Assembly: GCF_032027425.1 (NCBI RefSeq)
Contig: NZ_JAVSJA010000001.1
Span: 620,001 to 684,000, forward strand
DNA: 64,000 nucleotides
Direction: 5' to 3'
DNA from: Microcystis wesenbergii NRERC-220
GTDB taxonomy: Bacteria > Cyanobacteriota > Cyanobacteriia > Cyanobacteriales > Microcystaceae
Part shown: piece by piece, positions 4,988 to 63,095 of the stretch
How positions within the stretch are numbered: the first letter of the stretch is position 1
Layout: each line of letters starts with the position of its first letter
Notes under the pieces: model-generated
The model's input: the letters and a program-made list of their open reading frames with translations, nothing else
Told to the model about the DNA's origin: nothing
Database searches by the model: none
Made by a program: the position numbers and the translations under genes

Positions 4988-4993
4988 TCAAAA

Positions 4994-5083: not shown

Positions 5084-5090
5084 TAGCCTT

Positions 5091-16006: not shown

Positions 16007-16603
16007 CCAATTCAAAAATGAAACGCACGACTCCTCAAGATTTAACAGAAAAAGGCTCATCGGGTATTGTCCGAATCAATACAACCCAAATTCCGCAGGT
16101 GGAAAAAGACAAAGGAAAAGACAGAAAAAGCCGAACAATTCACTAAATATAAATACTCAAGAAAGTCTCAGGGTGAGTGCAGCTAAAACTCTATTGACAA
16201 TTGGTCAATTAGGTTTTGTCCCCTTAGATATTTCTGGCTAAAACTAAATATTTAGCCACGGTGTTAGGAACTAAGCTAAGACGCATTTAAACCGCTTACT
16301 CTTAGATTAGCCGAACCGCCCCCAATCCCTTTACTGTTGCCTTTTGCCTCTTGCCTCTTGCCTCGTCTCAACAAGCAATTTAAATTACGAACAGCTTAGC
16401 GTCGTCAGACGTGGATGTTGACACTCCCGTTGCCTAGTCGAGCCGTCAGGACTCAAACGGTAAGTCTGCCAAAGGAAGCGTCAAAAGCACAAAATCTGTG
16501 AGATTAGCGTTTCCAAAGCTAATCAAGCGCGAAGCGGATTAGCCTAGTTCATTTTTTCTAGACACTATTTTTTCGTGACTTCAGGAAACCGGCGATCAAA
16601 TGC
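16007..16603. other. Intergenic region before ilvC
   Basis: Holds a repeat of 14557-14580 near 16008, then a 42-codon open frame from 16018 (MKRTTPQDLTEKGSSGIVRI) and a second fragment near 16170 (KTLLTIGQLGFVPLDISG). These look like remains of a decayed gene but I cannot name it. GCCTCTTGCC units occur at 16340-16365. From 16425 there is GTTGACACTCCCGTTGCC, which resembles the edges of IS200/IS605-type elements. Confidence 0.45.
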
Positions 16604-31552: not shown

Positions 31553-32680
31553 TTAATACAATTCGTATTTTAAGAGGGTACAGGGCAAAGAACCGTTATA
31601 CAAGGGAGTGCGACGGGAAGAACGCAGACCGATTTGTTTAGTCAGTTCTTTGTTTCCCGATAAAATATAGGCTGTCCAACCCTTAAACCTCTGTTTTAAG
31701 ACATCACCGAAGGATTTATATAAGGCCCCTAATTCTTCGGTATTGCCCAATCTTTTGCCGTAAGGGGGATTACAGAGAATAATCCCTCGATCGCTCGTCG
31801 GTTCTAAATCGGTGATGCTTTGCAAGCTAAAATTAATATGGTCCTGCACTTGACAAAAATAGGCATTATCCTCGGCCTGATGTAGAACCTCGTAATCGGC
31901 ATCACTAGCATAAATTGGCGCATTTAGCTGAAATTTTTGTTTTTCTTTAGCTTCCTTAAGCAAAGATTGCCATAAATCCGGTTGATAGTCTGGCCACTTC
32001 TGAAATCCGAACTGGGAACGAGATAAACCGGGGGCAATATTTAAAGCTTTTAAGGTCGCTTCGATGACAATAGTTCCCGAACCACAAAAAGGGTCTAAAA
32101 GCGCCATATCATCCTGCCATGCCGATAATTCTACCAAAGCAGCGGCGAGACTTTCTTTCAGAGGTGCGACTCCCATGGCCCGATGATACCCGCGACGATG
32201 TAAACTGTGGCCAGAACTATCTAAACTAAGCACACAGCGATTTTTCTCGATATGAGCGTTAATTTGCAGGTCGGGATTTTCTGTATCCACAAAAGAACGG
32301 GGATTCCCCTGTTGACGCTGTTGGTCGATAATAGCGTTTTTGATGCTTAAGGCGGTGTAATGGGTGTGATTGAGGCGATCGTTCGTTCCCGTACATTGTA
32401 CCGCTAAAGTTTCCTCACTGCTGAGATAATCGCGCCAATCAATGGCTTGAATGCCATCATAAAGTTCCTTCCCATCCCCACAGGGAATTTCGGCAATGGG
32501 AACCAAAACCCGAAAAATAATTCTTGACCAAAGATTGACTCGATAGAGTAGGGCCAGATCTCCCTGAAAATGGACTCCCGTGAATACTGGTTTCACTTCT
32601 TTAGCCCCTAGGAATTCTAATTCCCTAGCGGCAATTTCTTCTAGTCCCCTAGCGGTAGTAGCAAAATAGGATCGAGTCAT
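31553..32680 (-). CDS. THUMP-domain 23S rRNA methyltransferase (RlmL/YcbY N-terminal type)
   Basis: 375 residues. The N-terminal THUMP region (ATTARGLEEIAARELEFLGA to VQCTGTNDRLNHTHYTALSI) binds structured RNA. The C-terminal Rossmann methyltransferase has DPFCGSGTIVIEATLKALNI and the catalytic NPPYG motif (IILCNPPYGKRLG). The layout is that of m2G-forming N2-guanine methyltransferases such as RlmL and the TrmN group; the exact rRNA or tRNA site is not determined. It is convergent and adjacent to mdh. Confidence 0.88.
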   Translation of the reverse strand: MTRSYFATTARGLEEIAARELEFLGAKEVKPVFTGVHFQGDLALLYRVNLWSRIIFRVLVPIAEIPCGDGKELYDGIQAIDWRDYLSSEETLAVQCTGTNDRLNHTHYTALSIKNAIIDQQRQQGNPRSFVDTENPDLQINAHIEKNRCVLSLDSSGHSLHRRGYHRAMGVAPLKESLAAALVELSAWQDDMALLDPFCGSGTIVIEATLKALNIAPGLSRSQFGFQKWPDYQPDLWQSLLKEAKEKQKFQLNAPIYASDADYEVLHQAEDNAYFCQVQDHINFSLQSITDLEPTSDRGIILCNPPYGKRLGNTEELGALYKSFGDVLKQRFKGWTAYILSGNKELTKQIGLRSSRRTPLYNGSLPCTLLKYELY

Positions 32681-32682
32681 TT

Positions 32683-32800
32683 CAGTTATCAGTTTTCAGT
32701 TTTCAGTTATCAGTTATCAGTTATCAGTTATCAGTTATCAGGTTTCAGGTTTCAGGTTTCAGGTTTCAGTTTTCAGTTTTCAGTTTTCAGTTTTCAGTGA
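32683..32800. repeat. Tandem TTATCAG / TTTCAGG heptamer array
   Basis: Upstream of the methyltransferase gene is a run of related 7-bp units: TTATCAG copies, then TTTCAGG, then TTTTCAG. It is the complement-type relative of the CTGATAA array at 4994. Confidence 0.9.
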
Positions 32801-32953: not shown

Positions 32954-33147
32954 GGGTGCATCTCATATTTTGTGATTTTCTCTCACCTATAGGTGAGCAG
33001 CAGAAATTATTAAAAGAGGGCGAAGGCAATTCGCCCCGACAATCATATTATTGCGCCAATGGTAGGGGCGCATCGTGGTCAGTGAGTTTATCGAACTGCG
33101 TGCGCCCAAATGTAATATAGATATTTCTCCAAAATTCAGATGCACCC
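32954..33147. mobile_element. 194-bp MITE with 8-bp target duplication ATAATAAT
   Basis: Inverted ends GGGTGCATCTCATATTTTG and, from the right, GGGTGCATCTGAATTTTG. Direct repeats ATAATAAT flank it at 32946-32953 and 33148-33155. The core (33014-33115) is the dispersed repeat also found at 8855-8955. A perfect CTCACCTATAGGTGAG palindrome lies near 32990. There is no transposase. Confidence 0.82.
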
Positions 33148-34945: not shown

Positions 34946-35428
34946 ATGTCATCTTTACCGACTCCATCTGCTGATACCTTAGAAAATTCTACTCGATCGC
35001 CCTCTTGGAAAATTAAACTCCTCTACGATGGAGAATGTCCCCTCTGCTTGCGGGAGGTTAATTTTCTGCAAAAACGGGATGCTGGGAGAGGATTAGTTGC
35101 TTTTGTCGATATTGCCGCCGAAAACTATAATCCGGAGGAAAATGGCGGTATTTCCTTCGCGGCGGCCATGGGACGAATCCACGCTGTACTAGCCGATGGT
35201 ACTATCCTCCAAAATGTGGAAGTGTTTCGCCAAGTCTATGATATTTTGGGCATCGGTTGGATTTATGCCGCTACCAAATGGCCGGTTATTGGGTTTCTAG
35301 TGGATATTATCTATGAAATTTGGGCTTCTTGGCGATTAACCTTAACCGGAAGACCGAATGTAAAAACAATCTTAGCAGAGCGTCAAAAACGTCTGGAATG
35401 CAACTCATCAAATCGTTGTTCTCAGTGA
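34946..35428 (+). CDS. Thiol-disulfide oxidoreductase, DCC family (DUF393)
   Basis: 160 residues. The defining DGxCPLC motif is LLYDGECPLCLREVNFL near residue 29, a CXXC redox centre in a thioredoxin-like context. It is followed by LADGTILQNVEVFRQVYDIL and a hydrophobic stretch (WPVIGFLVDIIYEIWASWRL) that may touch the membrane. The family is widespread and its role is mostly untested. A dense mobile-repeat cluster follows. Confidence 0.85.
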   Translation: MSSLPTPSADTLENSTRSPSWKIKLLYDGECPLCLREVNFLQKRDAGRGLVAFVDIAAENYNPEENGGISFAAAMGRIHAVLADGTILQNVEVFRQVYDILGIGWIYAATKWPVIGFLVDIIYEIWASWRLTLTGRPNVKTILAERQKRLECNSSNRCSQ

Positions 35429-35482: not shown

Positions 35483-35608
35483 CTAAATCCGTTGAGTATA
35501 GGCTACTTATAAGGACAGTCAAAAGGCAAAAGGCTTCGGCCGTGAGCTCAGCCGAACGGCAAGAGGCAAAAGGAGAAATAAATAATCAGTTTTTAATAAC
35601 CAGATTTA
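35483..35608. mobile_element. CTAAATCC-ended MITE (copy 2)
   Basis: Flanked by direct ATGTGATA repeats (35475-35482 and 35609-35616), a probable 8-bp target duplication. The right end is mutated (CAGATTTA for GGATTTAG). The inside carries half of the palindromic repeat seen at 2968. Confidence 0.8.
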
Positions 35609-35665: not shown

Positions 35666-35735
35666 CTAAATCCGTTAAGTATAAGCTACATATCAGGAGA
35701 GGTACTCCTGCAAGGGGAGTGACTCTTAAATTATT
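35666..35735. mobile_element. CTAAATCC-ended MITE (copy 3, truncated)
   Basis: Only the left end CTAAATCCGTTAAGTATAAG and a short interior remain; the right end is lost. Confidence 0.65.
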
Positions 35736-35881: not shown

Positions 35882-36007
35882 CTAAATCCGTTGAGTATAG
35901 GCTACTTATAAGGACAGTCAAAAGGCAAAAGGCTTCGGCCGTGAGCTCAGCCGAACGGCAAGAGGCAAAAGGAGAAATAAATAATCAGTTTTTAATAACC
36001 AGATTTA
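35882..36007. mobile_element. CTAAATCC-ended MITE (copy 4, left border of the island)
   Basis: Nearly identical to copy 2, including the right flank ATGTGATAATTCTGCCTA, but with a different left flank, so it arose by segmental duplication and not by a fresh insertion. It directly precedes the G+C-rich island. Confidence 0.8.
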
Positions 36008-36041
36008 ATGTGATAATTCTGCCTAGTAAATAAATGGTATT

Positions 36042-36758
36042 TTATTTTCTTGCCAGTCCCTGACTGCGACCGATGATCGCCCAGAGATAGCTAATTCCTA
36101 AGGCCAAAAACGCGAGGGGAATACTTTCTTTGACGATAAAAATACCCAGACCGATCAGCACACAGGGAACGAAGGTACTTCCCTGACTGGTTAAGATAGT
36201 GGCGATGGTCGGCACACTGGTCAACCCGTAGGCGAACGCACACCAAACCCCCACCAGAATCAAAAAAACGCTGACGATAACGATCAGACTTGTTATGCTA
36301 CTACTGGCGAACAGGGGAACGTAAATACCGATATTATCGCTCCCGTTGGCGACGGTCAACGCAGCCACGCTATAGGTGCGCGGGTCAAACCAACGGCCGA
36401 AGGGTTTACCCTGAGCTACGCCGAAGGGGGAATGTTTCGCACCCTCCAGGTCCAATTCGACATTCTCCGGCTCTTCCTCCTTCTCCTCTTCTTTGAGAAG
36501 GGAAACGATGCCGAGAATCACAGGAACGAGGCCTAGATAGCGAATCCAGGGGGTAGGGATGAGAAAACAGCCGAAAAATCCCGCCAAACTGGCAATAACC
36601 AGCAGACTAAAGCCGATATACTGACCGATGACGATATCGCGATGACGGAAGAGTTTTCCCGTTTGGCTGAAGAGAATCGTCAGGATCAATATATCGTCGA
36701 GGTTGGTGGCGACGAATGCTGCTACACCAGTAGATATCGCGATCACAATCTCGATCAT
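36042..36758 (-). CDS. CadD-like cadmium-resistance family transporter (1)
   Basis: 238 residues, five or six helices. The start IVIAISTGVAAFVATNLDDI with the acidic NLDDILIL motif and the second half VAALTVANGSDNIGIYVPLF are those of the CadD/LysE-fold exporters, reported to give cadmium tolerance. A cytoplasmic acidic loop (EEEKEEEPENVELDLEG) is followed by GVAQGKPFG, which is encoded by a variant of the dispersed 26-bp repeat (36404-36429). It is the last gene of the minus-strand island cluster. A paralogue lies at 45089-45772. Confidence 0.82.
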   Translation of the reverse strand: MIEIVIAISTGVAAFVATNLDDILILTILFSQTGKLFRHRDIVIGQYIGFSLLVIASLAGFFGCFLIPTPWIRYLGLVPVILGIVSLLKEEEKEEEPENVELDLEGAKHSPFGVAQGKPFGRWFDPRTYSVAALTVANGSDNIGIYVPLFASSSITSLIVIVSVFLILVGVWCAFAYGLTSVPTIATILTSQGSTFVPCVLIGLGIFIVKESIPLAFLALGISYLWAIIGRSQGLARK

Positions 36759-36924
36759 GGTTTTTTCCTTAAGATGGCCGTCGGGTTCGTCCGTTCGTTA
36801 CACCTTCACCGTGACAGGGGAAACCGAAATATTCGGCGTTCGGCTTTTCCTTCAAAGGTTCTGGAACGGGAGAATTTTACTACCTATCCCGATTGAGAAA
36901 CTGTATTTCGCACGACCGATCGCC

Positions 36925-38040
36925 CTAGGCCGCTGCGGGATGGAAAAAGAAAGCGAGGGCGATCACCGCGTAGGTCGCGACGAGTAATATACCCTCTAGC
37001 CAGTTCGAGCGACCGTCGTTACTGATCGAGTTAGTCAGCCACACCGCGACGGCGACGGCGACCAATTCAAACGGATCAAAATCGAGAGCCATCGGCTGAC
37101 CGAGGAAATAACCCGCGATTACGAGAACCGGCGCGACAAAAAGTGCGATTTGCAGACTCGAACCCACCGTCACGGAAACCGCCAGATCCATTTTGTCTTT
37201 TAAGGCGACCCTAACCGCGGTGGCGTGTTCGGCCGCGTTGCCGATAATTGGCAGCAGGATCACCCCCGTGAAAAGGGTCGTTAATCCTAATTTATGCGTG
37301 GCTTCCTCTAGGGTATTAACTAATAATTCCGATTCGACCGCCACACCGAGCGTCACGAGCAGTAATATCCCCACCCAGAGCCAGAGATTCGGCTTTTTTA
37401 CGCTTACCGCTTCCCCCGACTCTTGATCGAGATCTGCGTCCCCCACCTCGTAAAGATAGGTATGGGTCTTCATCGAAAACAGCAGACTCAGGCAATACAC
37501 AAAAATTAATACCGCCGCCACCGTTACCGAGAGACGCTGTAGGACGCTCTCCTCGATTGCGGCGGAGGTGTATTGAACGGTCGTGGGTAGGAGGATCGCT
37601 GCCACGGCGAGATTCATCGACGAGGAATTTAAACGGGCGGTCACGGGCTGGAATTTCTGTTCTTTATAGCGTAAGCCGCCGAAAAACATCGATAAGCCCG
37701 TTACCAGCAGCAGATTCCCGATAATCGAACCGGTAATCGTCGCTTTCACCACCTCGATCAAACCCTCTTCCAGGGCGGCGTAGGCGAGAATTAATTCGGT
37801 GGCGTTGCCGAAGGTGGCGTTCAGTAAACCGCCGAGATTGGGACCGACCACGACGGCGATTTCCTCGGTCGCTTTTCCCATGTAAGCGGCCAGGGGAACG
37901 ATCGCCAGACAGGCGCTCAGGAAAACGAGCGTCACGTCCCAATGGAGGAAATTCCCAGCGATCGAGATCGGGACAAAAACCAACAAAATGGCGAAAATCC
38001 GGTTCTTTATATTCATACCAAGGGGTGTTTGTTTCGGCAT
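36925..38040 (-). CDS. cax: Ca2+/H+ antiporter, CaCA superfamily
   Basis: 371 residues, about eleven helices. Both alpha-repeat signatures of the Cax family are present: GLLNATFGNATELILAYAAL near 87 and PIIGNAAEHATAVRVALKDK near 262, with the GNA(T/A)E(L/H) acid that carries calcium. An acidic loop (EVGDADLDQESGEA) lies between the halves. It exports calcium in exchange for protons at the cytoplasmic or thylakoid membrane. It starts 53 bases after the pstB stop on the same strand, so probable co-transcription with the pst genes is unusual. An alternative start is nine codons in (MNIKNRIF). Confidence 0.9.
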   Translation of the reverse strand: MPKQTPLGMNIKNRIFAILLVFVPISIAGNFLHWDVTLVFLSACLAIVPLAAYMGKATEEIAVVVGPNLGGLLNATFGNATELILAYAALEEGLIEVVKATITGSIIGNLLLVTGLSMFFGGLRYKEQKFQPVTARLNSSSMNLAVAAILLPTTVQYTSAAIEESVLQRLSVTVAAVLIFVYCLSLLFSMKTHTYLYEVGDADLDQESGEAVSVKKPNLWLWVGILLLVTLGVAVESELLVNTLEEATHKLGLTTLFTGVILLPIIGNAAEHATAVRVALKDKMDLAVSVTVGSSLQIALFVAPVLVIAGYFLGQPMALDFDPFELVAVAVAVWLTNSISNDGRSNWLEGILLVATYAVIALAFFFHPAAA

Positions 38041-38092
38041 AAAACCGCGGACGGTTTTGAAAAACAGACTATCAGCCTTTTTTCTGTTTCGA

Positions 38093-38914
38093 TTACCCGA
38101 ATCGCCCAGTAATATACTCCCGGGCCTCGTCGGTTTGCGGATTGCCGAACATAACTTCCGTGGGGCTGAATTCGACTAATTTTCCCCGGCGTTTCCCGGA
38201 CGGATCGGTTTCGGTGTTAAAAAATGCCGTCCAGTCGGCGATCCGCGATGCCTGCTGCATATTGTGGGTAACGGTAATGATCGTGTAACTTTCCTTCAGT
38301 TGTAGGCACAATTCCTCCACCTGACGGGTAGAGATGGGATCGAGGGCCGAACAGGGTTCATCCATCAATAAAACATCTGGCTTCATAGCGGTCGCAACGC
38401 GCTCGCTACGCGAGATCGCACGGGCGATACAGAGACGCTGTTGTTGTCCCCCCGATAGTGCCGTTCCTTTTTCTTTCAGTTTGTCCTTTACTTCCTCCCA
38501 GATCGCCGCCTGCCGCAGGGAATACTCGACCAATTCGTCCAGATTGCCCTGATAACCGTTGGTTCGGGGCGCGTAGGCGATATTCTCGTAAATGCTCTTG
38601 GGAAAAGGGTTCGGACGTTGGAAAACCATCCCCACCTGTCGCCGTAACTTGACCGCGTTGACCTGCGGATCGTAAATATTCTGATTTCGGTAAAGTAGTT
38701 TTCCCTCCACCTTGGCACCGGGGATCAGATCATTCATTCGGTTAAAGCAGCGCAAGAGGGTACTTTTCCCGCAACCAGACGGGCCGATAAAGGCGATGAT
38801 TTTTCGTGCGGGAATTTTAATATGAACGTCCACAAGAGCGAGAAACCCGTTATAAAAAACTTTCACTCCTTCCGCCTCGAAAACACTGTGATCTGGGTTA
38901 AGGTGGGTAGTCAT
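38093..38914 (-). CDS. pstB: Phosphate ABC transporter ATPase, with an inserted repeat
   Basis: Energises high-affinity phosphate import. 273 residues: Walker [19 protein letters not shown]-loop [20 protein letters not shown], signature [15 protein letters not shown], Walker [15 protein letters not shown], and H-loop [20 protein letters not shown]. Between the signature and Walker B, where family members read ARAIAMKPD, there are about nine to ten extra residues (SRSERVATA) encoded by the inverted palindromic repeat at 38388-38419. The insertion is in frame but lies in the catalytic core, so activity is doubtful. It follows pstA by 139 bases. Confidence 0.92.
38388..38419 (-). repeat. In-frame palindromic repeat inside pstB (copy 2)
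   Basis: A 32-bp unit identical in sense to that at 28232-28263 and read here as [10 protein letters not shown]. It lies between the ABC signature and Walker B. Confidence 0.85.
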
Positions 38915-39053
38915 GGCAAAAATTCTCCTGATCGTTTATTAAAGATCGATGGTTTTTTTAGAGGGGCGGGTTTGCAAACCCTCCCGTACTGGAGAAGTGG
39001 GGAGTGCAGGAGTAGGGAAGGTTCTGTATCTACCCCCTTGCCCGCTGCCTTCC

Positions 39054-39944
39054 CTAATTCAGTGTCGAATAACGTTGACGTAGATAGATGGCGATGGCGT
39101 TGAGGGCGAGAATTAACAGGATCAGAACGATAATCGCGGCCGCCGCCGCATTGGCGAAACCTGGTTCGGGACGGGTGATATAGCTGAAAATTTGAATCGG
39201 TAGTGCCATAAAGCGTTGGAATAAACCAGGATCGAAAGTGAGGAAACTAACCGCGCCGACGACCATTAAGGAAGCCGCGTCCCCGATCGCCCGCGACACG
39301 GAGATAATCACCCCCGTGAGAATCCCTGGCACCGCGTAGGGTAAAACATGGTGTTGGATCGTTTGCCATTTGGTACTGCCTAGACCGTAGGAGGCTTGGC
39401 GTAGGGAATCGGGAACCGCCCGGATCGCCTCCCGCGCCGTGACGATAATCACCGGCAGCGAGAGAAGCGCAAGGGTTAACGCGCCGGAAATCAGCGTCGG
39501 GCCAAAATTGAGCAGATAGTTAAAAACCGCTAATCCTAATAAGCCGTAGACGATCGAGGGAACCCCAGCCAGATTGCCGATATTCACCTCGATCAGTGCC
39601 GTCCACCAAGTTTTCGGGGCGTATTCCTCTAGATACAAAGCCGACCCGACCCCGATCGGCACCGCCACGAGAAGCACGATAATCCCCAGATAGAAACTAC
39701 CGATGATCGCCGGACGGATACCGCCCCTTTCCGGGAAACGGGAAGGCGTTTCCGTGAGGAATCCGGGGGTTAAGAGTCGTCCGAGTCCATCGTGGGCGAT
39801 ATTCAACACCAACAGCGCCAGAACGAACAAACCGATCAGTAAACCGAAGAGGAAAAGATACTCGCAGAATTTGCCGATCGCCTCGCGGCGTTCGAGATGG
39901 TCGATAAATTCAACGGTATCGGATTTGACAGAGGATTTAACCAT
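39054..39944 (-). CDS. pstA: Phosphate ABC transporter permease PstA
   Basis: 296 residues, six helices. The permease signature is VNIGNLAGVPSIVYGLLGLA followed by LALLSLPVIIVTAREAIRAV, and the EAA-type loop EAIRAVPDSLRQASYGLGST contacts the ATPase. Start MVKSSVKSDTVEFIDHLERR is cytoplasmic. It begins six bases after the pstC stop. With pstC it forms the membrane channel. Confidence 0.93.
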   Translation of the reverse strand: MVKSSVKSDTVEFIDHLERREAIGKFCEYLFLFGLLIGLFVLALLVLNIAHDGLGRLLTPGFLTETPSRFPERGGIRPAIIGSFYLGIIVLLVAVPIGVGSALYLEEYAPKTWWTALIEVNIGNLAGVPSIVYGLLGLAVFNYLLNFGPTLISGALTLALLSLPVIIVTAREAIRAVPDSLRQASYGLGSTKWQTIQHHVLPYAVPGILTGVIISVSRAIGDAASLMVVGAVSFLTFDPGLFQRFMALPIQIFSYITRPEPGFANAAAAAIIVLILLILALNAIAIYLRQRYSTLN

Positions 39945-40802
39945 GGGAAATCAATCGTATTTTTCTTTAAAACGGTGGGATATCCAGTAACTGGCTAGAT
40001 TCAGCACCAGCGTGATCAAAAAAAGCACCGCGCCGACTGCGTAGAGGGTTTTAAAACTGAGACTGCCCCGGGGCGCATCTCCCCCGGAAATCTCGGCCAT
40101 AAAAGCGGTCATCGTGGCGATCGACTCGAAGGGATTGAGGGTAAGCCGGGGTTGCGAGCCGGCGGCGATCAACACCGTCATCGTTTCCCCCACCGCCCGC
40201 GACATTCCCAGAATAATCGAGGCCATGATCCCGGAGAGGGCGGCGGGGAGAACCACTTTAAAAATCGTTTCCAGCTTGGTAATTCCTAGGGCGTAGGAAC
40301 CCTCGCGCAGGGAACGGGGAACCGCTCGGATCGCGTCTAAACTAATCGATCCCACCGTGGGAGTGATCATGATCCCCATCATTAGCCCGGCACTGAGGGC
40401 GTTAAAAATCTCGACGGGGAAAAGATTCCGCAAAGTGGGCGTGACAACGAGTAGGGCGAAGTACCCGTACACCACCGTGGGAATCCCGGCAAGAAGTTCC
40501 ACCGCAGGGTGTAAAATCGCCGCCAGGTTCGGTTTCGCGTATTCGGCGAGGTAGATCGCGGAAGATAGGCCTAAAGGAACCGCGACGGACATAGCGATCG
40601 CTGTGGTTAAAAATGTCCCGTTAATCAGCGGCCAGATGCCGAAATGAGGGGTGGCGAACAGTGGAGTCCAACGGGTATCGAGAAAGAATTGGGCGAAAGA
40701 TACCTCTTGAAAAAATCCCCAGGTTTCACTAAAAATAATCGCCACGATGCCGAGCGTCGTCGCCACGGAAACGAAAGCGCAAACAAAGAGAATTAGCGCG
40801 AT

Positions 40803-42641
40803 TCAGCAATTCTCATTTTGAAAACAAAAGAAGATAAAGTTCTCTATGTGAACAAGAGAACTTCTGTCTAATTATCATTTTTTTTCAAGATAATCATCAT
40901 AATTAGCTTCAAGAGACAGTTTTAAAATATCTGCCCATAAAAAACTTATCTCAACTCATAAATTTAGCTGAAATTCTGACCTAATTTGTGGTTTTTTCAA
41001 TGAATAAAATAATCTTTCCTTCTCTCGAAAAATTGACATTTTTAACTAGAATTTATTTTTTTGAGCGGGACATATTCGGTAAGAATAAACAAGAAAAACT
41101 CTGACCAATTCTTAAAACAAAAATATTTTAATAAAGTACGAATATCATTAAAAAAACTGGTGCGAGTAACTAATAACTCACGAATCTTTTGATAAGTATG
41201 ATTAACTAAATCTAAAACGGTATGAAATAAAAAAGCTAGTAAATTTAAAGACAACAAGAACTCGCATAAATGACTTTGACCATGACCAAAATTATGTTCT
41301 AAATTATAACCGTGATTTTTAAGAACGTTATTTCCTTCATTCTCAACTTTCCATCTGCTGCGTCCAGCTTTGACAATTTTTTCAACATTATTTTCAGTAA
41401 TTTGATGATTGGTAATCCAATTATTTTGATAGATAATTTTCTGTGTTTTTTCATTAATGACCGTGACTTCACACCAATTAACTTCGAGACTTGACTCGAC
41501 CTCTCTCAGAGGAACTCTAGAAACATAACGATAACGATAAATGAGATTCTTTCGTCCATCCCATTGTTTCTTTTCTACGGTTTTAACTTCTCCACTTTTT
41601 TCTAAAAATTCTAGCCATTCATATAAGGTTTTATGAGAAGTTTCAAGACAAACAAAAATAAAATTATAACCTTGTTTTAGAGCTAACTCACAGATAGGTT
41701 GGCGAGAGTATAAGTCATCTCCTAACAGGGTTACAGGATAACCATACTTCTTTTGATGATTCTTATCTAACCATCTTTTAACAGCCGCATTTTCACAATC
41801 TTGTTTTTGCTGCCCATCTTGTTTTTTAATAAATTCTGGTTCTAAATTAATCACTTGTTTTTGCTCAGGAGAAACCACAATTGGCGTGACGCAACCATGA
41901 AAATAAGTTGTCGTTCCCTTACGATGATTGCGGCAATTACAATGGGGACAACTAATTTTCTTTGAAGAAAAATATTCCGTACCATCTAAAGCTATTAAAA
42001 TTTCCTCATCTAAGTAGAAAAAATTTTTAATAACTCCCTGTTTTTTTAACCATTGATAGACTTGTTGAAAAGAGCCAAATATTGTGGCAGCTGGGATAGG
42101 ATCTAACAGGTTTCTGATTTGATTATCACAAGGTATTTTTTTGATACCAAATAAACTTGAAGCATTATCTTTTCCCTTACTAATTTTCATCAAACGTTGA
42201 TGCTCTAAAAAAGAAGGTGACTGAGTAAAAAAAACCGAAAAAGCCGCCTTAACTGCATCTTCTACCTGATATTTGGTATTGTTTCCTGGTTTTCTGTCAT
42301 CGGGTAAGTCATGTAATTCTTGAACTAAAAATTGTATTAATTCAGGAATTTCTAAAGTCACAGCCTTTTTCGTCATCGCAGAACAGTTTGATTAATTAAT
42401 ATTTCCAACTTAATAATTTTACCTCAACAGACAACAATCATCAATTTTTATTTGGTTCTCTTTCTGATGTAGAGAACTTTTGTTCTAGATTTCTCCCATC
42501 TTTCAAATATTTTGAGTATAAATACTCTATATACTCACTTCTCTGCGATGCAGTCGCACTCGCGGGAGCGCATTTTGTAGCTTGCTTAAAGCTTTGTTTC
42601 TGTCTGTATCACTTGTTACTTTTTAAAATGAGAATTGCTGA
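40803..42641 (-). mobile_element. Complete 1.84-kb insertion sequence in pstC
   Basis: Inverted ends TCAGCAATTCTCATTTT on both sides; 7-bp target duplication GCGCGAT at 40796-40802 and 42642-42648. It holds one transposase gene (41042-42376). The element is much richer in A+T than the island around it. The 7-bp duplication and protein type suggest an ISNCY (ISDol1-like) or IS4-superfamily element; the family needs an ISfinder comparison. Confidence 0.92.
41042..42376 (-). CDS. DDE transposase of the pstC insertion sequence
   Basis: 444 residues, uninterrupted, so probably active. Candidate catalytic acids: the first D in LIALDGTEYFSSKKI near 130, the second in TLLGDDLYSRQPIC near 219, and the E in WKVENEGNNVLKNHGYNLEH near 345. 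A zinc-like CPHCNC pair follows the first D. The N-terminal helical domain (LVQELHDLPDDRKPGNNTKY) is the type seen in H-repeat and ISNCY transposases. It cuts at the element ends and rejoins at a new site. The start ATG is at 42376, about 265 bases inside the element. Confidence 0.88.
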   Translation of the reverse strand: MTKKAVTLEIPELIQFLVQELHDLPDDRKPGNNTKYQVEDAVKAAFSVFFTQSPSFLEHQRLMKISKGKDNASSLFGIKKIPCDNQIRNLLDPIPAATIFGSFQQVYQWLKKQGVIKNFFYLDEEILIALDGTEYFSSKKISCPHCNCRNHRKGTTTYFHGCVTPIVVSPEQKQVINLEPEFIKKQDGQQKQDCENAAVKRWLDKNHQKKYGYPVTLLGDDLYSRQPICELALKQGYNFIFVCLETSHKTLYEWLEFLEKSGEVKTVEKKQWDGRKNLIYRYRYVSRVPLREVESSLEVNWCEVTVINEKTQKIIYQNNWITNHQITENNVEKIVKAGRSRWKVENEGNNVLKNHGYNLEHNFGHGQSHLCEFLLSLNLLAFLFHTVLDLVNHTYQKIRELLVTRTSFFNDIRTLLKYFCFKNWSEFFLFILTEYVPLKKINSS

Positions 42642-42761
42642 GCGCGATTATCTTCTCTTGAATATCGTCGCCGGGGTGCTTGAGGAGTGAATTATCTCCC
42701 GCGAAAAAAGAATTATCGAAAGAACTCGGGGTTAAGGTCATGGTTTGACAAAATTCCTTTT

Positions 42762-43760
42762 TTAGATAAAGTTCGTGATCGGTTCTCCCGGTTTAGCTTT
42801 GCCGAATTTCGATCCCGTTTCCCCGCGCTCGAATTTCCGCAGGGTTTTGACGTAGGCCTCATCAGGTAAAGCGACGTAACCCACGCCATCGACCCATTTC
42901 CATGAATTTTCTAAATAGAAGCGCACGAATTTTTCCAGGGATGGATTCGTTTTTAAATTATTCTTGTTGACGTAGATAAACAGGGGACGGGAAAGGGGAT
43001 TATAGACATTGCGGAGAACGTTATCGATGGGGACCGGTTTGACGCATTTTCCTTCATTATTTTCGATCGCCACCAAGTTCAATCGATCTTGGTTCTGCAT
43101 ATAGAAAGAGATGCCTAAATAGGCAAGCGCGGATGGATTGCCGATCACCCCCTGTACGAGGGCGTTTTGATTGCGGTTCGGGGTGAAATCGGTACGGCTA
43201 TTTCTCCGTTTTCCCGTAATCGCTTGGGTGAAATAATCGAAGGTTCCCGTATCGGAAGGCGGCGCGAAAAGTAATAATCTTTCGTCGGGAAATTTGGGAT
43301 TAATCTGTTTCCAACTGGTAATCCTACCCTCCGCTTTCGTGTTCCACATTTTATCGAGTTCTTTAATCGTTAAACACTTGGCGAATTGATTTTTTTTATT
43401 GACGATCACCGCCAATCCGTCGATCGCCATCGGTAATTCCAGAAATTCCACGCCGTTTTCCCGACATTTCTCGATCTCTTCTTTCCGGATCACCCGCGAT
43501 GCCCCGGCGATGTCGAGATTTCCGGCGCAGAACTTACTAAAACCGCCCCCGGTTCCACTGGTGGCGACGCTTACCCGCGCTTCGGGATGGATTCTCTGAT
43601 ATTCTTCGGCAACGGCGAGGGAGAGGGCGAAACCCACCGCACCACCGTCGATCGAGACTGGCGCTTCTTTCTCGGCCGAGTCGGCCGGGCGACCGCAACC
43701 GGCGATCAAATTACTGGCCATCAGAAGGGAGATTAGGAAAAAATAATGAGAGAATTTCAT
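42762..43760 (-). CDS. pstS: Phosphate-binding lipoprotein PstS/SphX type
   Basis: 332 residues. The lipobox is LIAGC near residue 18-22. The binding fold has DGGAVGFALSLAVAEEYQRI, SGTGGGFSKFCAGNLDIAGA (the STGTG-like phosphate loop) and LLFAPPSDTGTFDYFTQAIT. It captures phosphate in the periplasm for the Pst channel. It directly precedes pstC (20 bases). A MITE occupies the region just upstream of its start, so its promoter may be altered; I saw no Pho-box CTTAACCT repeats there. Confidence 0.9.
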   Translation of the reverse strand: MKFSHYFFLISLLMASNLIAGCGRPADSAEKEAPVSIDGGAVGFALSLAVAEEYQRIHPEARVSVATSGTGGGFSKFCAGNLDIAGASRVIRKEEIEKCRENGVEFLELPMAIDGLAVIVNKKNQFAKCLTIKELDKMWNTKAEGRITSWKQINPKFPDERLLLFAPPSDTGTFDYFTQAITGKRRNSRTDFTPNRNQNALVQGVIGNPSALAYLGISFYMQNQDRLNLVAIENNEGKCVKPVPIDNVLRNVYNPLSRPLFIYVNKNNLKTNPSLEKFVRFYLENSWKWVDGVGYVALPDEAYVKTLRKFERGETGSKFGKAKPGEPITNFI

Positions 43761-43766
43761 AGATTA

Positions 43767-43868
43767 AGTAGTCGTGCAAAATAAATTTCCTAGTGAAGAA
43801 AGGCACTCATGCAAGAGACAAGAGGCAAGAGGTGGTTAGATATGTGTAATTAATTTTGCTTAGGTACT
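43767..43868. mobile_element. AGTA-ended MITE with TA duplication (copy 3, upstream of pstS)
   Basis: 102 bp with the same ends as the copy at 25112-25213 and flanking TA (43765-43766, 43869-43870). It fills almost all of the gap between the sulfate-binding gene and pstS, seven bases upstream of the pstS ATG. Confidence 0.88.
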
Positions 43869-43884
43869 TAAAGCGGGAAAAATG

Positions 43885-44982
43885 TTAAGAAGCGGACTGG
43901 TTCTTAATTTGCTCGAAGATGCCTTTATCGGCGAGAAATTCTGTTTGGATCAACGTCCAGCCGCCGAGATCTTGGGCGTTGAAAAGAGTTTCGATCGGCG
44001 GGAATTGTAATCCTTCATCCTTGGCCACGAAGGGATTGACCGATCGATAGCCCAATTTGGCCAATTCCTGTTGTGCCGGTTCGGAATAGAGGAAATCCAC
44101 AAAGGCCTCGGCCACCTCTCGCGTGCCGTGTTTATCGACATTTCTATCCACCACCGCCACGGGATTATCGATCGAGATATTGACCGGGGGGACTAAGTAA
44201 CTGGTATCGGGTTGATTTCTTGCCGCTAGAATTACCTCGTTTTCGTAGGTGACTAAAACATCCCCCTTTCCTTCTTGGAAAAAGGCATTGCTGGCTTCCC
44301 GCGCGTCCCTGTCTAGGGTGGGAATCTTTTGATAGATCCGGCGGACAAAATCCCATGCCTGTTGCGGTTCGCCCCCCGTTTGCGTCACCGAACCCCAGAG
44401 GGCTAATAACTGCCAAATAGCGATCCCAGAAGTTTTCGGATCGGCGGATAGAACCGTAACGTCCTCTCTAGCCAGATCCGCCCAAGATTGAATCTTTTTC
44501 GGATTTCCCGCCCGCGTGACGATCGCCGCCACCGAGTGACTCACCACCCCCCGCCGCGGCACCCGATCTTCCCAACCGCGATTAATCAGGCCGGCTTGAG
44601 ATATCCGCATCACGTCGAGGGGAAGGGCGAGATGTACCACGTCCGCCTCTTGTTTCCCGGCGATCTCGCGTAGCGAGCGCTTTGCGTTCACGTCATCGGC
44701 CTGGGCTAGGGAACCGCCGTAACTCCGCTGGAAAATGACTTTTTGGTTATGCTCTTTCCGCCATTTCTCGACGAATTTCGGGATAATCTGGTCGTGGGCG
44801 GCTTTCGTGACCGAGAAGGAAACGAGATTCAGTTTCACCTCCGGTTTCGAGCCGATCCCGCCGCAGGAGGCGAGGGCGAGACTTGCCAACAGTCCCACTA
44901 ACAGGAAGGAAAGGAAGCTCCTCCCCGAAAGGGAACGAAAGCGACGAAACAGCGATCGAATTGACAACAGTGATACATTCAT
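43885..44982 (-). CDS. sbpA: Sulfate/thiosulfate-binding lipoprotein, with an inserted repeat
   Basis: 365 residues. The lipobox is LALASC near 40, after a long basic N-terminus. Family blocks: LVSFSVTKAAHDQIIPKFVE, FQRSYGGSLAQA, ADVVHLALPLDVM and DPKTSGIAIWQLLALWGS. Between SYGGSLAQADDVN and EADVVHLAL lies NAKRSLREIAGKQ, part of which is encoded by a variant of the palindromic repeat (44660-44690) read in the other direction. No cysT, cysW or cysA is near, so it must work with a permease elsewhere. It may instead bind a different oxyanion. Confidence 0.87.
   Translation of the reverse strand: MNVSLLSIRSLFRRFRSLSGRSFLSFLLVGLLASLALASCGGIGSKPEVKLNLVSFSVTKAAHDQIIPKFVEKWRKEHNQKVIFQRSYGGSLAQADDVNAKRSLREIAGKQEADVVHLALPLDVMRISQAGLINRGWEDRVPRRGVVSHSVAAIVTRAGNPKKIQSWADLAREDVTVLSADPKTSGIAIWQLLALWGSVTQTGGEPQQAWDFVRRIYQKIPTLDRDAREASNAFFQEGKGDVLVTYENEVILAARNQPDTSYLVPPVNISIDNPVAVVDRNVDKHGTREVAEAFVDFLYSEPAQQELAKLGYRSVNPFVAKDEGLQFPPIETLFNAQDLGGWTLIQTEFLADKGIFEQIKNQSAS
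44660..44690 (-). repeat. In-frame palindromic repeat inside the sulfate-binding gene (copy 3)
   Basis: Shares GCGATCTCGCGTAGCGAGCG with copies at 28232 and 38388, with changes in the right part. It is translated here as KRSLREIAG. Confidence 0.75.
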
Positions 44983-45088
44983 CGGGATTTTCTCGATAAG
45001 GTTGATCTAAACCAACTAATTTTTATTCTCTCTTCCTGAATTTTGACTCCCGTGGGAGCCGGAGATTGGCGTTTACGGGGGGTCTAAT

Positions 45089-45772
45089 TTAGCCGATGGG
45101 AATCAACAGGCGATAGGAGCCGTTATCGAGAATAATCCGTAGGCCCAACCACATCAGCACAAAAGGGAAAAGCTTACTCGCATAACGGCTGAGGACAACT
45201 GCGATCCCCGGTTGGCGGGTTAGATTATAGGAGAGAAATAACCAAGTACAGACGATTAAATAGCAGATCGGGATGATTACGGCTAACTGCGCCACGGTAC
45301 TATTGGCGAATAGGGGAATGTAGATACCGAGATTATTGCCGCCATTGGATATCGTGACCGCGGAGACTCGATAGGTTTGGCGATCTCTGAGGACTTGAGC
45401 GAGGGATAGTCTGCGGGAGGCGAACCCATGAAATTGGGCGTTTCTTTGCAAATTCACCTTGCGATCTGCGGTTTCCCTCTCGTTATCGCGATTTAAAGTC
45501 ACTAAATTTCTCACACCGATGAGGAGCGGCAAGATTCCGAGAAGACCGATATAAATCGGCGGGATGATTAGGCCGAGTAGAAAACCCAGCAAGCTAACCG
45601 ATACTAAGGCCGTAAACCCGACTAGCTCGCCGACGACGACGTGAACCGGGCGAAAGGTACGATTTACCTCGCTAAAGAAGCCAGTTAGATAAATATTGTC
45701 GTCGAAGGTGGTGGCTATGCCGGTGGCCACCGCGATTTTGACGATTTCGATCAACCAATCCATCCATACCAC
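45089..45772 (-). CDS. CadD-like cadmium-resistance family transporter (2)
   Basis: 227 residues, paralogue of the gene at 36042-36758. The N-terminal acidic motif is ATGIATTFDDNIYLTGF and the second-half motif VSAVTISNGGNNLGIYIPLF. The first has FDDN in place of NLDD and the second GGNN in place of GSDN, so one acidic site is lost and ion choice may differ. Helices: about six. It is the first gene of the minus-strand island cluster, upstream of the sulfate-binding gene by 106 bases. Confidence 0.8.
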   Translation of the reverse strand: MVWMDWLIEIVKIAVATGIATTFDDNIYLTGFFSEVNRTFRPVHVVVGELVGFTALVSVSLLGFLLGLIIPPIYIGLLGILPLLIGVRNLVTLNRDNERETADRKVNLQRNAQFHGFASRRLSLAQVLRDRQTYRVSAVTISNGGNNLGIYIPLFANSTVAQLAVIIPICYLIVCTWLFLSYNLTRQPGIAVVLSRYASKLFPFVLMWLGLRIILDNGSYRLLIPIG

Positions 45773-45908
45773 CTCGATCTCTCAAATGCGGGCGCAATTT
45801 AATTTTAAAACTATATCATTTTCAATACATTTATAAATGTAATTCACTACACAATCTAGGAGTCGTGGATTTCTATAGTATGTAGATAAAACTAATGGAA
45901 CCTCTCCC

Positions 45909-45933
45909 GCTTGCCCTGAGCCAAGTCGAAGGG
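45909..45933. repeat. Dispersed 26-bp repeat (CTTGCCCTGAGCCAAGTCG), intergenic copy
   Basis: Same unit as in-frame copies at 23845-23870, 50203-50228 and 52527-52552, with a diverged one at 36404-36429. Here it lies in the gap upstream of the SsuA-like gene. Confidence 0.85.
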
Positions 45934-45982
45934 ATCGAGTTGGGAAACCCTTCCCTCTTGTCTCCTTGCCCGACGATAAATC

Positions 45983-47242
45983 TTGTTTTCTGCGAGAAAT
46001 CCCATGCTCCACCGTTCGATCAAGTGTCTCTGGAAACCGTGGCGAAATTGGCGGGGAGTTCGTCCCGCGGTGCTTTTTGTGACCAGCCTGGTCGGGAGCT
46101 TTCTCCTGGCTGGATTTTCCCACACGATCGCCGTCGGTCAAAATTCTCGATCCGATAACCCGATTCTCAACCTCGTCGATAGCTTTAAATTCCCCCGGAA
46201 TACCACTCCCCGGCTATTGGAAACCGTGGGATTATTTATCGCCGGAATTCTCTTCTGTATCCTGATCGATCGCTGGTTCAAGCGCTCAACCCCCGACCCT
46301 ATCACTCCCCTCGCCAAACAAGCGCGGCGGTTAGGAACCCTCAAGATCGGCTACCCTGAGGGCATGACCAATCTGGAAGTTCTCCGCGCCCAGGCCTTTC
46401 TGGAAAGACGCTTAAAACCCTTTGGGGTGACGGTAACGTGGACGAGTTTTCTGGCCGCTTCCTCTCTGATCGAGGCTTTGAGTAACGGAATGATCGACTT
46501 CTGCGGTGGTGGCGGTACGGCGAGTATTTTCTCCCAAGCGGCCGAACACGTCTTCGTCCGGGTAGCCAAGGAAAAATATACCGCCCCCAAAGGTCAGGCG
46601 ATCCTCGTGCCGGAGGATTCGCCAATAGAGACGTTGGCGGATTTAAAAGGAAAAAGAATCGCCTTCGATCGGGGTTCGAGCGCCCATTACGTCCTCATCC
46701 GCGCCCTGATGAGAGTGAATCTAGAATTAAGCGATATCGAACCGGTGTATGCAACCCAACCGGAAGCACTGGTGCTTTTCCGTCGCGGTGAGATCGACGC
46801 TTGGGTGGTGTGGGTTCCCTACTCGCCCACGGAGACGCGCACCTATCCGGGAAGATCGTTGGCCGATTTGGAGAGCATCTTCGGGGAAAACGCCTCTCTA
46901 GAAGTGCCGACCTATTATTATGCGGTTCCCGAATTGGTGCGAGATTATCCCGATGTACTGAAGGTGATTTTAGAAGAGGTGAACGAGGCGGGGGCCTGGG
47001 CGAAACAACAGGAGTTAGAGGCGACGAGACGCTTGGCAGCCCACCACGAGATCGATCCGGCGATCGTGGCTAATCTCGAACAACGGGCCTCTGAACGTGC
47101 CATTATCCCGATCGATGATCGCTCTCTGACGGCCCTACAACACCAAGCTCATATCTTCCGAGACCTGAAGCTGATCCCCCATCGGGTCAATGTGCGCGAC
47201 GGAACCTACACCCTACAGACGAAACAAAATTGGACATATTAA
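45983..47242 (+). CDS. Membrane-anchored SsuA/TauA-like substrate-binding protein
   Basis: Up to 419 residues; an ATG at 46004 (MLHRSIKCLWKPWRNW) is an alternative start. Two hydrophobic helices precede the domain: VLFVTSLVGSFLLAGF and VGLFIAGILFCILIDRWF. The binding domain has LKIGYPEGMTNLEVLRAQAF, WTSFLAASSLIEALSNGMID, DLKGKRIAFDRGSSAHYVLI and GEIDAWVVWVPYSP, the NMT1/SsuA pattern of aliphatic sulfonate or taurine binders. No ssuB or ssuC is adjacent. It is divergent from the CadD-like gene and closes the island. Confidence 0.8.
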   Translation: MFSARNPMLHRSIKCLWKPWRNWRGVRPAVLFVTSLVGSFLLAGFSHTIAVGQNSRSDNPILNLVDSFKFPRNTTPRLLETVGLFIAGILFCILIDRWFKRSTPDPITPLAKQARRLGTLKIGYPEGMTNLEVLRAQAFLERRLKPFGVTVTWTSFLAASSLIEALSNGMIDFCGGGGTASIFSQAAEHVFVRVAKEKYTAPKGQAILVPEDSPIETLADLKGKRIAFDRGSSAHYVLIRALMRVNLELSDIEPVYATQPEALVLFRRGEIDAWVVWVPYSPTETRTYPGRSLADLESIFGENASLEVPTYYYAVPELVRDYPDVLKVILEEVNEAGAWAKQQELEATRRLAAHHEIDPAIVANLEQRASERAIIPIDDRSLTALQHQAHIFRDLKLIPHRVNVRDGTYTLQTKQNWTY

Positions 47243-47244
47243 TA

Positions 47245-47346
47245 CTAAATCCGTTGAGTATAGGCTACATATCAGGATAGGCAAGAGGCACTCTTGCAAG
47301 AGGCAAAAGGAGGAATAACTAATCAGTTTTTAATAACAGGATTTAG
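47245..47346. mobile_element. CTAAATCC-ended MITE (copy 5, right border of the island)
   Basis: Begins CTAAATCCGTTGAGTATAGG two bases after the SsuA-like stop and ends AACAGGATTTAG. It has the same orientation as copy 4 at 35882-36007, so the island lies between direct repeats. Confidence 0.82.
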
Positions 47347-47427: not shown

Positions 47428-48672
47428 CTAACTCAACGCTTCAAAATAATCGCAAATTTGATGATGTCGCTGGGATTGACGCAGTTTTTGCAACGCTTTC
47501 GACTCAATTTGTCGTACCCTTTCCCGGGATAATTCCAAAGTGCGACCGATATCAGCCAAAGAATGGGATTTACCATCGAGAAAACCATAGCGCAATTCAA
47601 TCACTTCTCGTTCACGAGCGGTTAAATCTGCCAATAATTCTCTCATATCTCTTTGCAAAGATTCATAGACAAGATGATTTTCTGAAGACAGTGCTTCGGT
47701 TTCCAAAAGGTCTAATAATTCCGTATCTTTTTCCTTACCTACTTTTATTTCTAAGGAAACCGAACGCGGCACTTTCATCAACAATTCCCGCACAGCTTCA
47801 GGAGTCAGAGCTAACTCTTGGGCAATTTCCTCTACGGTCGCAGTGCGACCGCGCATTTGCGAGATTTTCGTTTGTGCCTTCTTAATTCTGTTGAGTTTTT
47901 CGGTAATATGAACCGGTAAGCGAATAATCCGGCTTTGAGTTGCGATCGCTCTCGTCATTCCTTGACGGATCCACCAGTAGGCATAGGTACTAAAACGATA
48001 GCCTTTGCTGGGATCAAATTTCTTGACGGCCCGTTCTAAACCCAGGGTTCCCTCTTGAATCAAATCCAATAATTCTAAACCGCGATTCTGATATTTTTTG
48101 GCCACCGACACCACTAGACGTAAATTGGCCTTGATCATCTGTTCTTTGGCACGGGTACCAAGGGTAATAATTTCTTCTAATTTCCCCACTTCTAAGCCCG
48201 CTAGGTGCGCCCAACGCTGTTTTCCTGCTTTTAAAGCATTTTTTAACTCAGACACGGTGATTTGGGCGGTTTTTGCCCAACGTTCTAGGGAGGGACGATG
48301 GGCTGATCGAGCGGTTAGCCGATCGCAAATCTCAATTAACTTGACAAATTGCTGTACTTGTGCATCACCTTGTTTAACGGCGGCGGCGCGTAATTTCAGT
48401 AAAGACAGATGACGCTGCACCCGTTGCGCTTGTTCAACTTCCTCCTCCTGTTTGAGTAGAGGCACTCTGCCAATGTCTTGTAGATATAAACGTACTAAAT
48501 CAGTAGTTGTCCCTTTGCTGTAGCTTTTTTCAGGACTAGATACTAAATCATCTTCTAAATCACTGCCGAGAAAATCTTCATCTAGGTCGATCGAGTTTTC
48601 CTTCAATTTTAGGACAGAAAAAGAGGGAGAGATGAATTCAGTTTCGAGCGTCGAGGGATTAATTGCAGACAT
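47428..48672 (-). CDS. sigC: Group 2 sigma-70 factor, SigC-like
   Basis: 414 residues. Region 1.2 is DLVRLYLQDIGRVPLLKQEE; regions 2.1-2.4 are NLRLVVSVAKKYQNRGLELL to KGYRFSTYAYWWIRQGMTRA; region 3 follows; and region 4.2 has LELSRERVRQIESKALQKLR. It lacks the long RpoD region 1.1. The long 1.2-2.1 spacer with SLERWAKTAQITVSELKNAL and KQRWAHLAGLEVGKLEEI fits SigC among cyanobacterial group 2 factors, which serve stress and nitrogen or carbon conditions. The sub-group call rests on memory and length. Confidence 0.8.
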   Translation of the reverse strand: MSAINPSTLETEFISPSFSVLKLKENSIDLDEDFLGSDLEDDLVSSPEKSYSKGTTTDLVRLYLQDIGRVPLLKQEEEVEQAQRVQRHLSLLKLRAAAVKQGDAQVQQFVKLIEICDRLTARSAHRPSLERWAKTAQITVSELKNALKAGKQRWAHLAGLEVGKLEEIITLGTRAKEQMIKANLRLVVSVAKKYQNRGLELLDLIQEGTLGLERAVKKFDPSKGYRFSTYAYWWIRQGMTRAIATQSRIIRLPVHITEKLNRIKKAQTKISQMRGRTATVEEIAQELALTPEAVRELLMKVPRSVSLEIKVGKEKDTELLDLLETEALSSENHLVYESLQRDMRELLADLTAREREVIELRYGFLDGKSHSLADIGRTLELSRERVRQIESKALQKLRQSQRHHQICDYFEALS

Positions 48673-51005: not shown

Positions 51006-51180
51006 TCTTTCTCGTTTTAATTACATTCCCTCATGACTTTATGACAATAACGAATTTTATTCTGACTTTTGGTAGAAATTGCTACCGTTTTCTCAGTTAT
51101 CAGTTACCAGTTATCAGTTATCAGATGTGAGTTTTCAGTTCACTGATTACTGTTTACTGTGGACTGATCACTGAAAAAAA

Positions 51181-62818: not shown

Positions 62819-63095
62819 CTAAACGCTTTTCAAATGAGCGAACCGTGAGTCCTGAAATTTTCTGGTTCTCATTAAGCCGAGATTTTGTGGCAACTTATTG
62901 AGAATGTAGTCTCTGAAACGCTCATAATTGCCTTCCATATTCTCAATAACTACGGCGGATTCAGGATTAGTCTGGTACATTCTCCACGCGGAAAAGCTTA
63001 TCCAATAAGGAATTAGCTGTGCCAGACGAATAAAGCAACCGCCGTAATTGATTCTCAATTGCAATAAAATCCAGTATGATTTATTACGCTTCCAG
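62819..63095 (-). pseudogene. Fragment of an unknown gene, carrying a MITE
   Basis: Read on the minus strand, removing the MITE at 62951-63046 with one TA gives a continuous stretch ILDFIAIENQLVIENMEGNY and ERFRDYILNKLPQNLGLMRT, then RKFQDSRFAHLKSV and a stop at 62819. The 5' part is lost at about 63095, where the composition changes abruptly. I do not recognise the protein; the tail looks helical and basic. Confidence 0.45.
62951..63046. mobile_element. TACGGCGG-ended MITE (copy 2)
   Basis: Matches 14203-14298 along its whole length, with ends TACGGCGG and CCGCCGTA and the internal GTCTGGTACA/TGTGCCAGA pair. It interrupts the gene fragment at 62819-63095. Confidence 0.78.

Follow-up and report, generated by a model that had tools for sequence, protein, structure and literature searches.

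A block of nine transporter and binding-protein genes in Microcystis wesenbergii NRERC-220, at positions 36,008 to 47,244 of a 64,000-nucleotide stretch (the window; positions 620,001 to 684,000 of contig NZ_JAVSJA010000001.1), is probably an accessory Microcystis block for nutrient-oxyanion transport, foreign in base composition, that received miniature inverted-repeat transposable elements (MITEs) and an insertion sequence later and whose CadD-like proteins serve sulfur metabolism and not metal-phosphate storage. In the block itself, known transporters appear as an accessory variant; more interesting are the association of many cyanobacterial CadD loci with sulfur genes and a clade of CadD2-type proteins that lack the aspartate of transmembrane segment 4 (TMS4). 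A first-pass annotation had proposed a metal-phosphate island deletable between direct MITE copies; its observation is partly confirmed and mostly right, and the MITE mechanism and metal-phosphate function are not supported. The block comprises the following features (window coordinates, strand, family score and cut-off in bits):

36042..36758, minus: cadD1 (PF03596, 97.6), with canonical motifs NLDD (TMS1) and NGSDN (TMS4)
36925..38040, minus: cax, Ca2+/H+ antiporter (TIGR00378, 492; cut-off 211)
38093..38914, minus: pstB (TIGR00972, 352.8; cut-off 343.2)
39054..39944, minus: pstA (TIGR00974, 261; cut-off 193)
39951..40766, minus: pstC, 3' part only as an open reading frame (ORF) of 271 residues (TIGR02138, 270; cut-off 196)
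40803..42640, minus: insertion sequence inside pstC, about 1.84 kb, with a 9-bp target duplication read by eye
42762..43760, minus: pstS, phosphate-binding protein (TIGR02136, 250; cut-off 207)
43885..44982, minus: sbpA of the pst-linked type, loop TSGIAIW (TIGR00971, 208.8; cut-off 155.5)
45089..45772, minus: cadD2 (PF03596, 78.5), with TFDDN (TMS1) and NGGNN (TMS4, Asp to Asn)
45983..47242, plus: ssuA-like binding protein gene, divergent from cadD2 (TIGR01728, 161.7, beside the cut-off of 163.5)

The minus-strand genes are transcribed in the order cadD2, sbpA, pstS, pstC, pstA, pstB, cax, cadD1, with the ssuA-like gene opposite from 45983, and all four PstSCAB subunits exceed their curated cut-offs (PstC scored as its 271-residue remainder). 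The gene content and strands reported by the first-pass annotation stand, but its single intact cluster does not, because the insertion sequence splits pstC. The Pfam scan of 10 block ORFs returned no integrase, the block ORFs scanned include no polyphosphate gene and no ssuB or ssuC permease gene, and Rfam gave no match at gathering score within 34-49 kb of the window. Two modules are combined in the block, the cyanobacterial sbpA-pstSCAB operon, whose pst-linked SbpA is of a distinct kind, and a divergent cadD2 and ssuA-like pair of the Microcystaceae, together with cadD1 and cax.

CadD is encoded by 57 of 146 genomes of the class. From each of the 56 genomes besides our own we took the best CadD locus, drew 40 control Cax loci from this same set, and counted genes for TSUP, CysK, SbpA, CysT/W, rhodanese, SsuD, and YeeE within about 9.5 kb (973 kb of DNA covered for CadD, 712 kb for Cax). 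Sulfur genes lie near 30 of the 56 CadD loci and near none of the 40 controls (17 versus 0 with TSUP excluded), iterated profiles for five sulfur families again gave 30 and 0, and the positives span 12 of 15 families. The commonest sulfur neighbor is TSUP (TauE/SafE-type, 25/56), cysK occurs at 8/56, and TSUP, CysK, rhodanese, and CysA are significant one by one. The two other CadD loci of our own genome read LysR opposite cadD-DUF202-TSUP-cysA, and cysK..Crp-cadD-SPFH-DUF202..rhodanese. Further neighbors of CadD loci are DUF202 (20/56), SPFH/Band 7 (22/56), an amino-acid permease (17/56), and PAP2 (16/56), all at 0/40 in the controls. Two groups of proteins without a Pfam match also recur near CadD (loci L241-L296), c2 at 24/56 and the small c7 at 28/56, with 0/40 in the controls.

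Among the matches listed, 7 of 57 genomes have CadD no more than 10 kb from SbpA, where 0.41 would be expected (2 versus 0.20 at 5 kb; 9 versus 0.61 at 15 kb), and for Cax at the same distance the number is 2 of the 57 genomes, our own included, where 0.36 would be expected; these statistics cover 117 CadD, 150 SbpA, and 69 Cax places, ignore kinship, omit some second Cax copies, and do not have the block's own SbpA among the rows listed. The storage of metal as phosphate or polyphosphate, as earlier proposed, is disfavored by these proximities and by the frequent placement of CadD loci among sulfur genes. A CadD-Cax or calcium-phosphate unit was considered and rejected: proximity is near chance outside the block, with L025, L021, and G127 as exceptions. 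Among the titles of matches listed, a literature search returned no paper linking cyanobacterial CadD to sulfur and nothing on sbpA with pst.

Both block CadDs belong to the CadD family (PF03596, TC 2.A.77), exceeding its gathering cut-off of 26.2 bits and sharing the DD motif of TMS1; they differ in falling below the TIGR00779 curated cut-off of 181.65 bits (CadD1, 132.5; CadD2, 92.6), and CadD2 lacks the TMS4 Asp. In a set of 132 distinct CadD sequences, 23, nine of them from Microcystis, carry both TFDDN and NGGNN and group as a single clade (FastTree support, 1.0); the remaining 109 lack both motifs, and all of these keep the TMS4 Asp. CadD1 is among the keepers (NGSDN), and CadD2 shares NGGNN with 22 further clade sequences. 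The available part of PMC4608589 describes CadD as a family of Cd2+ efflux proteins and this Asp as fully conserved in 85 CadD and 85 MntP sequences. To place its TMS4 motif we used the distances between G, D, N, Y, and P, and the conflict means that either the sample of that review holds no such CadD2 or our motif matching is at fault.

The two modules recur outside Microcystis to different degrees. Of 80 loci fetched with PstS, 67 have sbpA upstream of pstS at a distance of no more than 1.5 kb, 10 have no SbpA, and 3 have it elsewhere; these loci are not independent, since most are from Nostocales. The 79 non-Microcystis loci include cadD in 10 and cax in 2 (L021 and L025). As a correction to the first-pass annotation, these neighbors are linked unequally elsewhere. 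The SbpA of the block belongs to the same family as that of the Synechocystis sbpA-cysTWA operon (slr1452-1455), which is induced by sulfur starvation (PMC2491639; "cadmium" does not occur in the available portion of its main text); unlike that operon, the block pairs sbpA with pstSCAB, lacks cysTWA, and has a changed loop. The loop in question is SSGGARW in structure 1SBP (129-135), where it presumably contacts the ligand, and TSGIAIW in the block. All 70 rows of pst-linked SbpA have TSGI (61 TSGIAIW, the other 9 TSGIG[IVN]W), the seven cys-linked rows have TSGGARW (5) or TSGVARW (2), and four other rows are mixed (two TSGIAIW). Loss of Trp192 was rejected as a specificity signal, this 1SBP residue being Tyr in pst-linked and cys-linked SbpA alike.

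The SsuA-like protein aligns over residues 119-407 with SsuA (PDB 2x26; E value, 1.5e-39) and differs from it in about 118 extra leading residues, which look hydrophobic by eye, in the lack of ssuBC in the block, and in the divergent cadD2. Across 118 genomes, near full-length relatives outside the genus (65-74% identity) occur only in G161 (two), G166, and G187, other matches reaching at most 37%, and each has a CadD2-type gene opposite, with an ORF between in one G161 locus; the arrangement thus spans four Microcystaceae genera, Microcystis and three others. Within 19 kb, G166 carries TSUP, the cadD2 and ssuA pair, ssuD, sbpA, rhodanese, a YeeE-type gene, cadD, and sbpA-pstSCA; G187 holds cysK, Crp, rhodanese, three divergent cadD and ssuA pairs, LysR, and sbpA-cysTWA, with a cadD2 and ssuA pair some 3-5 kb from an sbpA-NIL-cysTWA run (neighbor labels of this kind were checked with Pfam on representatives). 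The pairing does not look obligate, as the listed neighbors of ten CadD2-type loci, one of them in G167 from the same family, do not include an SsuA of this kind. A protein family with a ..LLETNEC stretch adjoins the CadD2-type gene in four of these ten loci (L053, L055, L069, and L269).

The block is compositionally distinct and varies among strains. GC3 of all nine block genes is 0.575-0.655, while 124 other ORFs, from the rest of the window and seven stretches of the same genome, average 0.408 (Mann-Whitney P = 6e-7), and 1 or 2 of those 124 match the GC3 of any single block gene. In 2-kb segments, the block has a G+C of 0.50-0.52 that drops to 0.34-0.43 near the insertion sequence; outside the block G+C is 0.41-0.52, two segments reaching 0.50 and 0.52. 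The first-pass impression, by eye, of a block richer in G+C than its flanks is confirmed. The pst part in Chlorogloea is likewise GC-rich (0.507 versus 0.442 around it), and those of L011, L013, and L218 are not. Elsewhere in the window, the ORF at 63105-63998 (GC, 0.61; GC3, 0.75) lies above every block gene.

Of 12 Microcystis genomes, six have a complete or almost complete block, four have part of it, one has only a relocated cadD2 and ssuA pair, and in one the block was not found. The first group comprises G000 (this strain, with pstC interrupted), G001, G007, and G008, along with G003 and G006, where it runs across contig breaks. G010 has an internal loss from pstB to sbpA; G004 retains a CadD1 remnant and, on a separate contig, an SbpA piece, CadD2, and SsuA; G009 has CadD1, a 110-residue Cax piece, PstB, PstA, and PstC before its contig ends, with SsuA not found; and G011 has CadD1, Cax, and the start of PstB before its contig ends, with no close PstS. 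Many of these genomes are drafts, and the parts missing at the G009 and G011 contig ends may be assembly gaps; G011 was also not among the matches of two distribution searches, the SsuA-like one included, so its inclusion there is uncertain. In G005 only the relocated pair is present, adjoining other CadD genes, and in G002 we found no close PstS, SsuA, CadD1, or CadD2. Block proteins of G001, which we take to be Microcystis aeruginosa NIES-843, are 89-100% identical to ours. G001 (locus L150) also has insertions of about 1.2 kb (9478-10716) and about 2.2 kb (14184-16369), inside and after the block.

A second allele of the core occurs in G003, G006, and G008 (PstS, 59-60%; PstC, 83-84%; PstA, 87-88%; SbpA, 76-82% identity), whose CadD, Cax, PstB, and SsuA remain at 89-97%, and the PstC and PstA of G009 match this alternative. 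In a PstS tree of 40 rows (32 of the 80 PstS-fetched loci, seven other stretches, and the window), Chlorogloea purpurea is the partner of the window allele (98/95), and a long branch sets the other allele apart; among named relatives, M. viridis FACHB-1342 has the PstS nearest to that of the window (99%). Foreign composition, accessory distribution, and a closest non-Microcystis PstS in Chlorogloea support horizontal acquisition, as first proposed, and the block has both the atypical composition and the accessory distribution of a genomic island. The opposite pattern, uniform composition and conservation in all relatives, is not what these genomes show, given the GC3 contrast and the variation among strains. 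A plasmid origin was rejected: of 72,556 plasmid records, PstS found matches in 91, none of them reaching 60% identity, with 55% the best listed.

The ends of the block bear on how it moved. Its flanks carry the following features:

34946..35428, plus: DCC1-like thiol-disulfide oxidoreductase gene, left flank (PF04134)
35483..35608, plus: MITE copy, 100% identical to 35882-36007
35882..36007, plus: MITE copy at the left edge of the block, not present in G003 and G006
47245..47346, plus: MITE copy at the right edge, 71% identical to the left copies
47428..48672, minus: sigma-70 family factor gene, right flank

Same-direction MITE copies do lie at 35882-36007 and 47245-47346 as first described, but they are not an exact border: the left side has two identical copies with a third, partial match at 35666 between them, and the right copy is only 71% identical. 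The element has 45 matches in the 4.68-Mb genome, partial ones counted. In G003 and G006, position 35482 of the window is joined straight to 36008, so the block there has no left MITE. In G003, G004, G006, G008, and G010, the SsuA stop is followed by a short match to the DCC1-like gene and no MITE (26/30, 56/61, 48/53, 64/71, and 45/49, respectively); these pieces score 40-107 against shuffle maxima of 24-27, with G003 weakest. The right ends of our own, the G007, the G001, and the relocated G005 copy have no such piece (scores, 14-16). The block is thus bracketed by parts of one gene at five of nine right ends tested, which may point to integration or duplication through recombination at the DCC1-like gene. 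At the block-free site of G005, the one such junction read, the aligned flank ends lie 47 bp apart with no MITE, and a single-copy empty site of the kind predicted for MITE-bounded deletion did not appear. Because there are MITE-free block alleles and a MITE-free block-free site, we judge the MITEs secondary; they are probably later arrivals and not the vehicle of the block. The available part of PMC11448079 reports that, in M. aeruginosa PCC 7806 delta-mcyB, a MITE interrupts the cysTWA-linked sbp gene, so this kind of element has been mobile in cultured cells. Other repeats in the window include heptamer TTTCAGT/TCAGTTA arrays at 32680-32798 (17 copies at 32680) and 51093-51140 with an inverted relative at 4990-5084, a 92-bp inverted pair 24 kb apart (8861-8952 and 33017-33108, 96% complementary), and a 98-bp direct repeat (14202-14299 and 62950-63047, 82% identical) with ends CTACGGCGG...CCGCCGTAA that may be another MITE-like element.

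The insertion sequence in pstC, missed by the first-pass annotation, encodes a 444-residue transposase (41042-42376; GC, 0.32) that scores below the curated cut-offs of PF01609 and NF033591, and it has four near-identical copies in the genome. In G007, positions 40802 and 42639 of the window meet with a 10-base overlap and pstC is intact (314 residues versus the 271-residue remainder here). With pstC interrupted, the second Pst transporter is probably inactive in this strain, which has its other pst cluster near 1.34 Mb.

Judged by gene order, the block corresponds to the second pst cluster already described for NIES-843. Harke and Gobler (2013; PMC3720943, available part, as for all its values below) list MAE 09250-09280 as pstB, A, C, and S and MAE 09320 as phnD; the pstB-A-C-S order agrees, as does a binding-protein gene four numbers further on, and that phnD would be the ssuA-like gene. 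In print, as far as the available part goes, it is one of two pst clusters, with no accessory distribution, CadD/SbpA/Cax context, second allele, or pstC insertion described. Under low phosphate, strain LE-3 (in NIES-843 numbering) raised pstC 3.55-fold, pstS 3.11-fold, and phnD 1.43-fold, with no value for pstA and pstB; the cluster is mildly induced. The cluster MAE 18340-18380 rose 4.6- to about 21-fold, pstS MAE 18310 rose 49-fold, and five of seven sulfate binding and permease genes also rose (PMC3720943).

We propose that the block would have been gained between the DCC1-like and sigma-factor genes, probably before the divergence of most strains in the sample, and would later have been partly lost and partly moved, its sbpA-pstSCA core being swapped for another allele; MITEs and the insertion sequence would have struck after its gain, interrupting pstC in this strain. 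Its CadD-like proteins would most likely act in sulfur homeostasis, not calcium-phosphate or polyphosphate storage, exporting a sulfur anion, a thiol, or a thiol-bound metal, or protecting the cell from it, while sulfate or sulfonate is taken up. A bolder version, in which cyanobacterial CadDs are mainly sulfur-homeostasis exporters, the CadD2 clade (TMS4 Asp to Asn) moves a sulfur anion or organosulfur compound and no divalent cation, the SsuA-like protein encoded opposite is held at the membrane in Microcystaceae as a partner for binding or sensing, and pst-linked SbpA gives the Pst permease a second oxyanion receptor, is tentative and may well prove wrong as a whole. Several points count against the sulfur role. 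No listed sulfur gene accompanies 26 of the 56 CadD loci, the positives are uneven (f28 8/9, f29 7/11, f22 1/9, f11 0/6), and SbpA, CysT, CysW, SsuD, and YeeE are not significant one by one. The probes were taken from CadD neighborhoods, some chosen for nearness to SbpA, so the test favors CadD loci, and the iterated profiles that left the count unchanged came from the same probes; the control is a single gene family with 40 of 52 planned loci, and contig ends cut some loci. The cax gene does adjoin the sbpA-pst region in L025 and L021, and pstC also rose 2.90-fold under low nitrogen (PMC3720943), so its response is not phosphate-specific. CadD1, which keeps the canonical acidic residues, may yet export metal, and the substrates, that of CadD2 included, are ones we infer.

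Metal detoxification offers a different account of the same neighborhoods: the CadDs would export Cd2+/Zn2+-type cations, and sulfur genes would lie close by since thiol synthesis buffers metals and sulfate feeds cysteine and glutathione. We consider this unlikely yet worth keeping in mind. Its strengths are the TMS4 Asp of CadD1 and 108 more of the 132 sequences, the Cd2+ efflux assigned to the family in the available part of PMC4608589, and cysK near 8 of 56 CadD loci; it fits poorly with TSUP as the top sulfur neighbor, with the presence of sulfate permease genes, and with a CadD2 that lacks the TMS4 Asp. That the site is a plastic hot spot that gathered unrelated transporters of no common function seems improbable to us. 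Repeated insertions, deletions, and allele swaps at the site favor such a patchwork, as does cax near pst in just 2 of 79 non-Microcystis loci; against it stand the 67 of 80 loci in which sbpA directly precedes pstS, the divergent cadD2 and ssuA pair in three other genera, and the 19-kb G166 region. The original proposal, an acquired island for metal-phosphate or polyphosphate storage that direct MITE copies could delete, can claim foreign composition, the joint presence of cax, cadD, and pst, and MITEs at both ends here; with MITEs that look secondary, a MITE-free junction at the sole block-free site read, CadD-Cax proximity near chance apart from the block itself, and no polyphosphate gene among the scanned block ORFs, we think it very improbable.

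Because the second Pst system varies from strain to strain, the possession of two pst clusters should not be assumed for Microcystis as a whole. PF03596 is named as a cadmium resistance transporter family; should it serve mainly sulfur metabolism in cyanobacteria, the name is misleading for studies of metal tolerance and blooms, and this family of the LysE superfamily would gain a testable new class of substrates.

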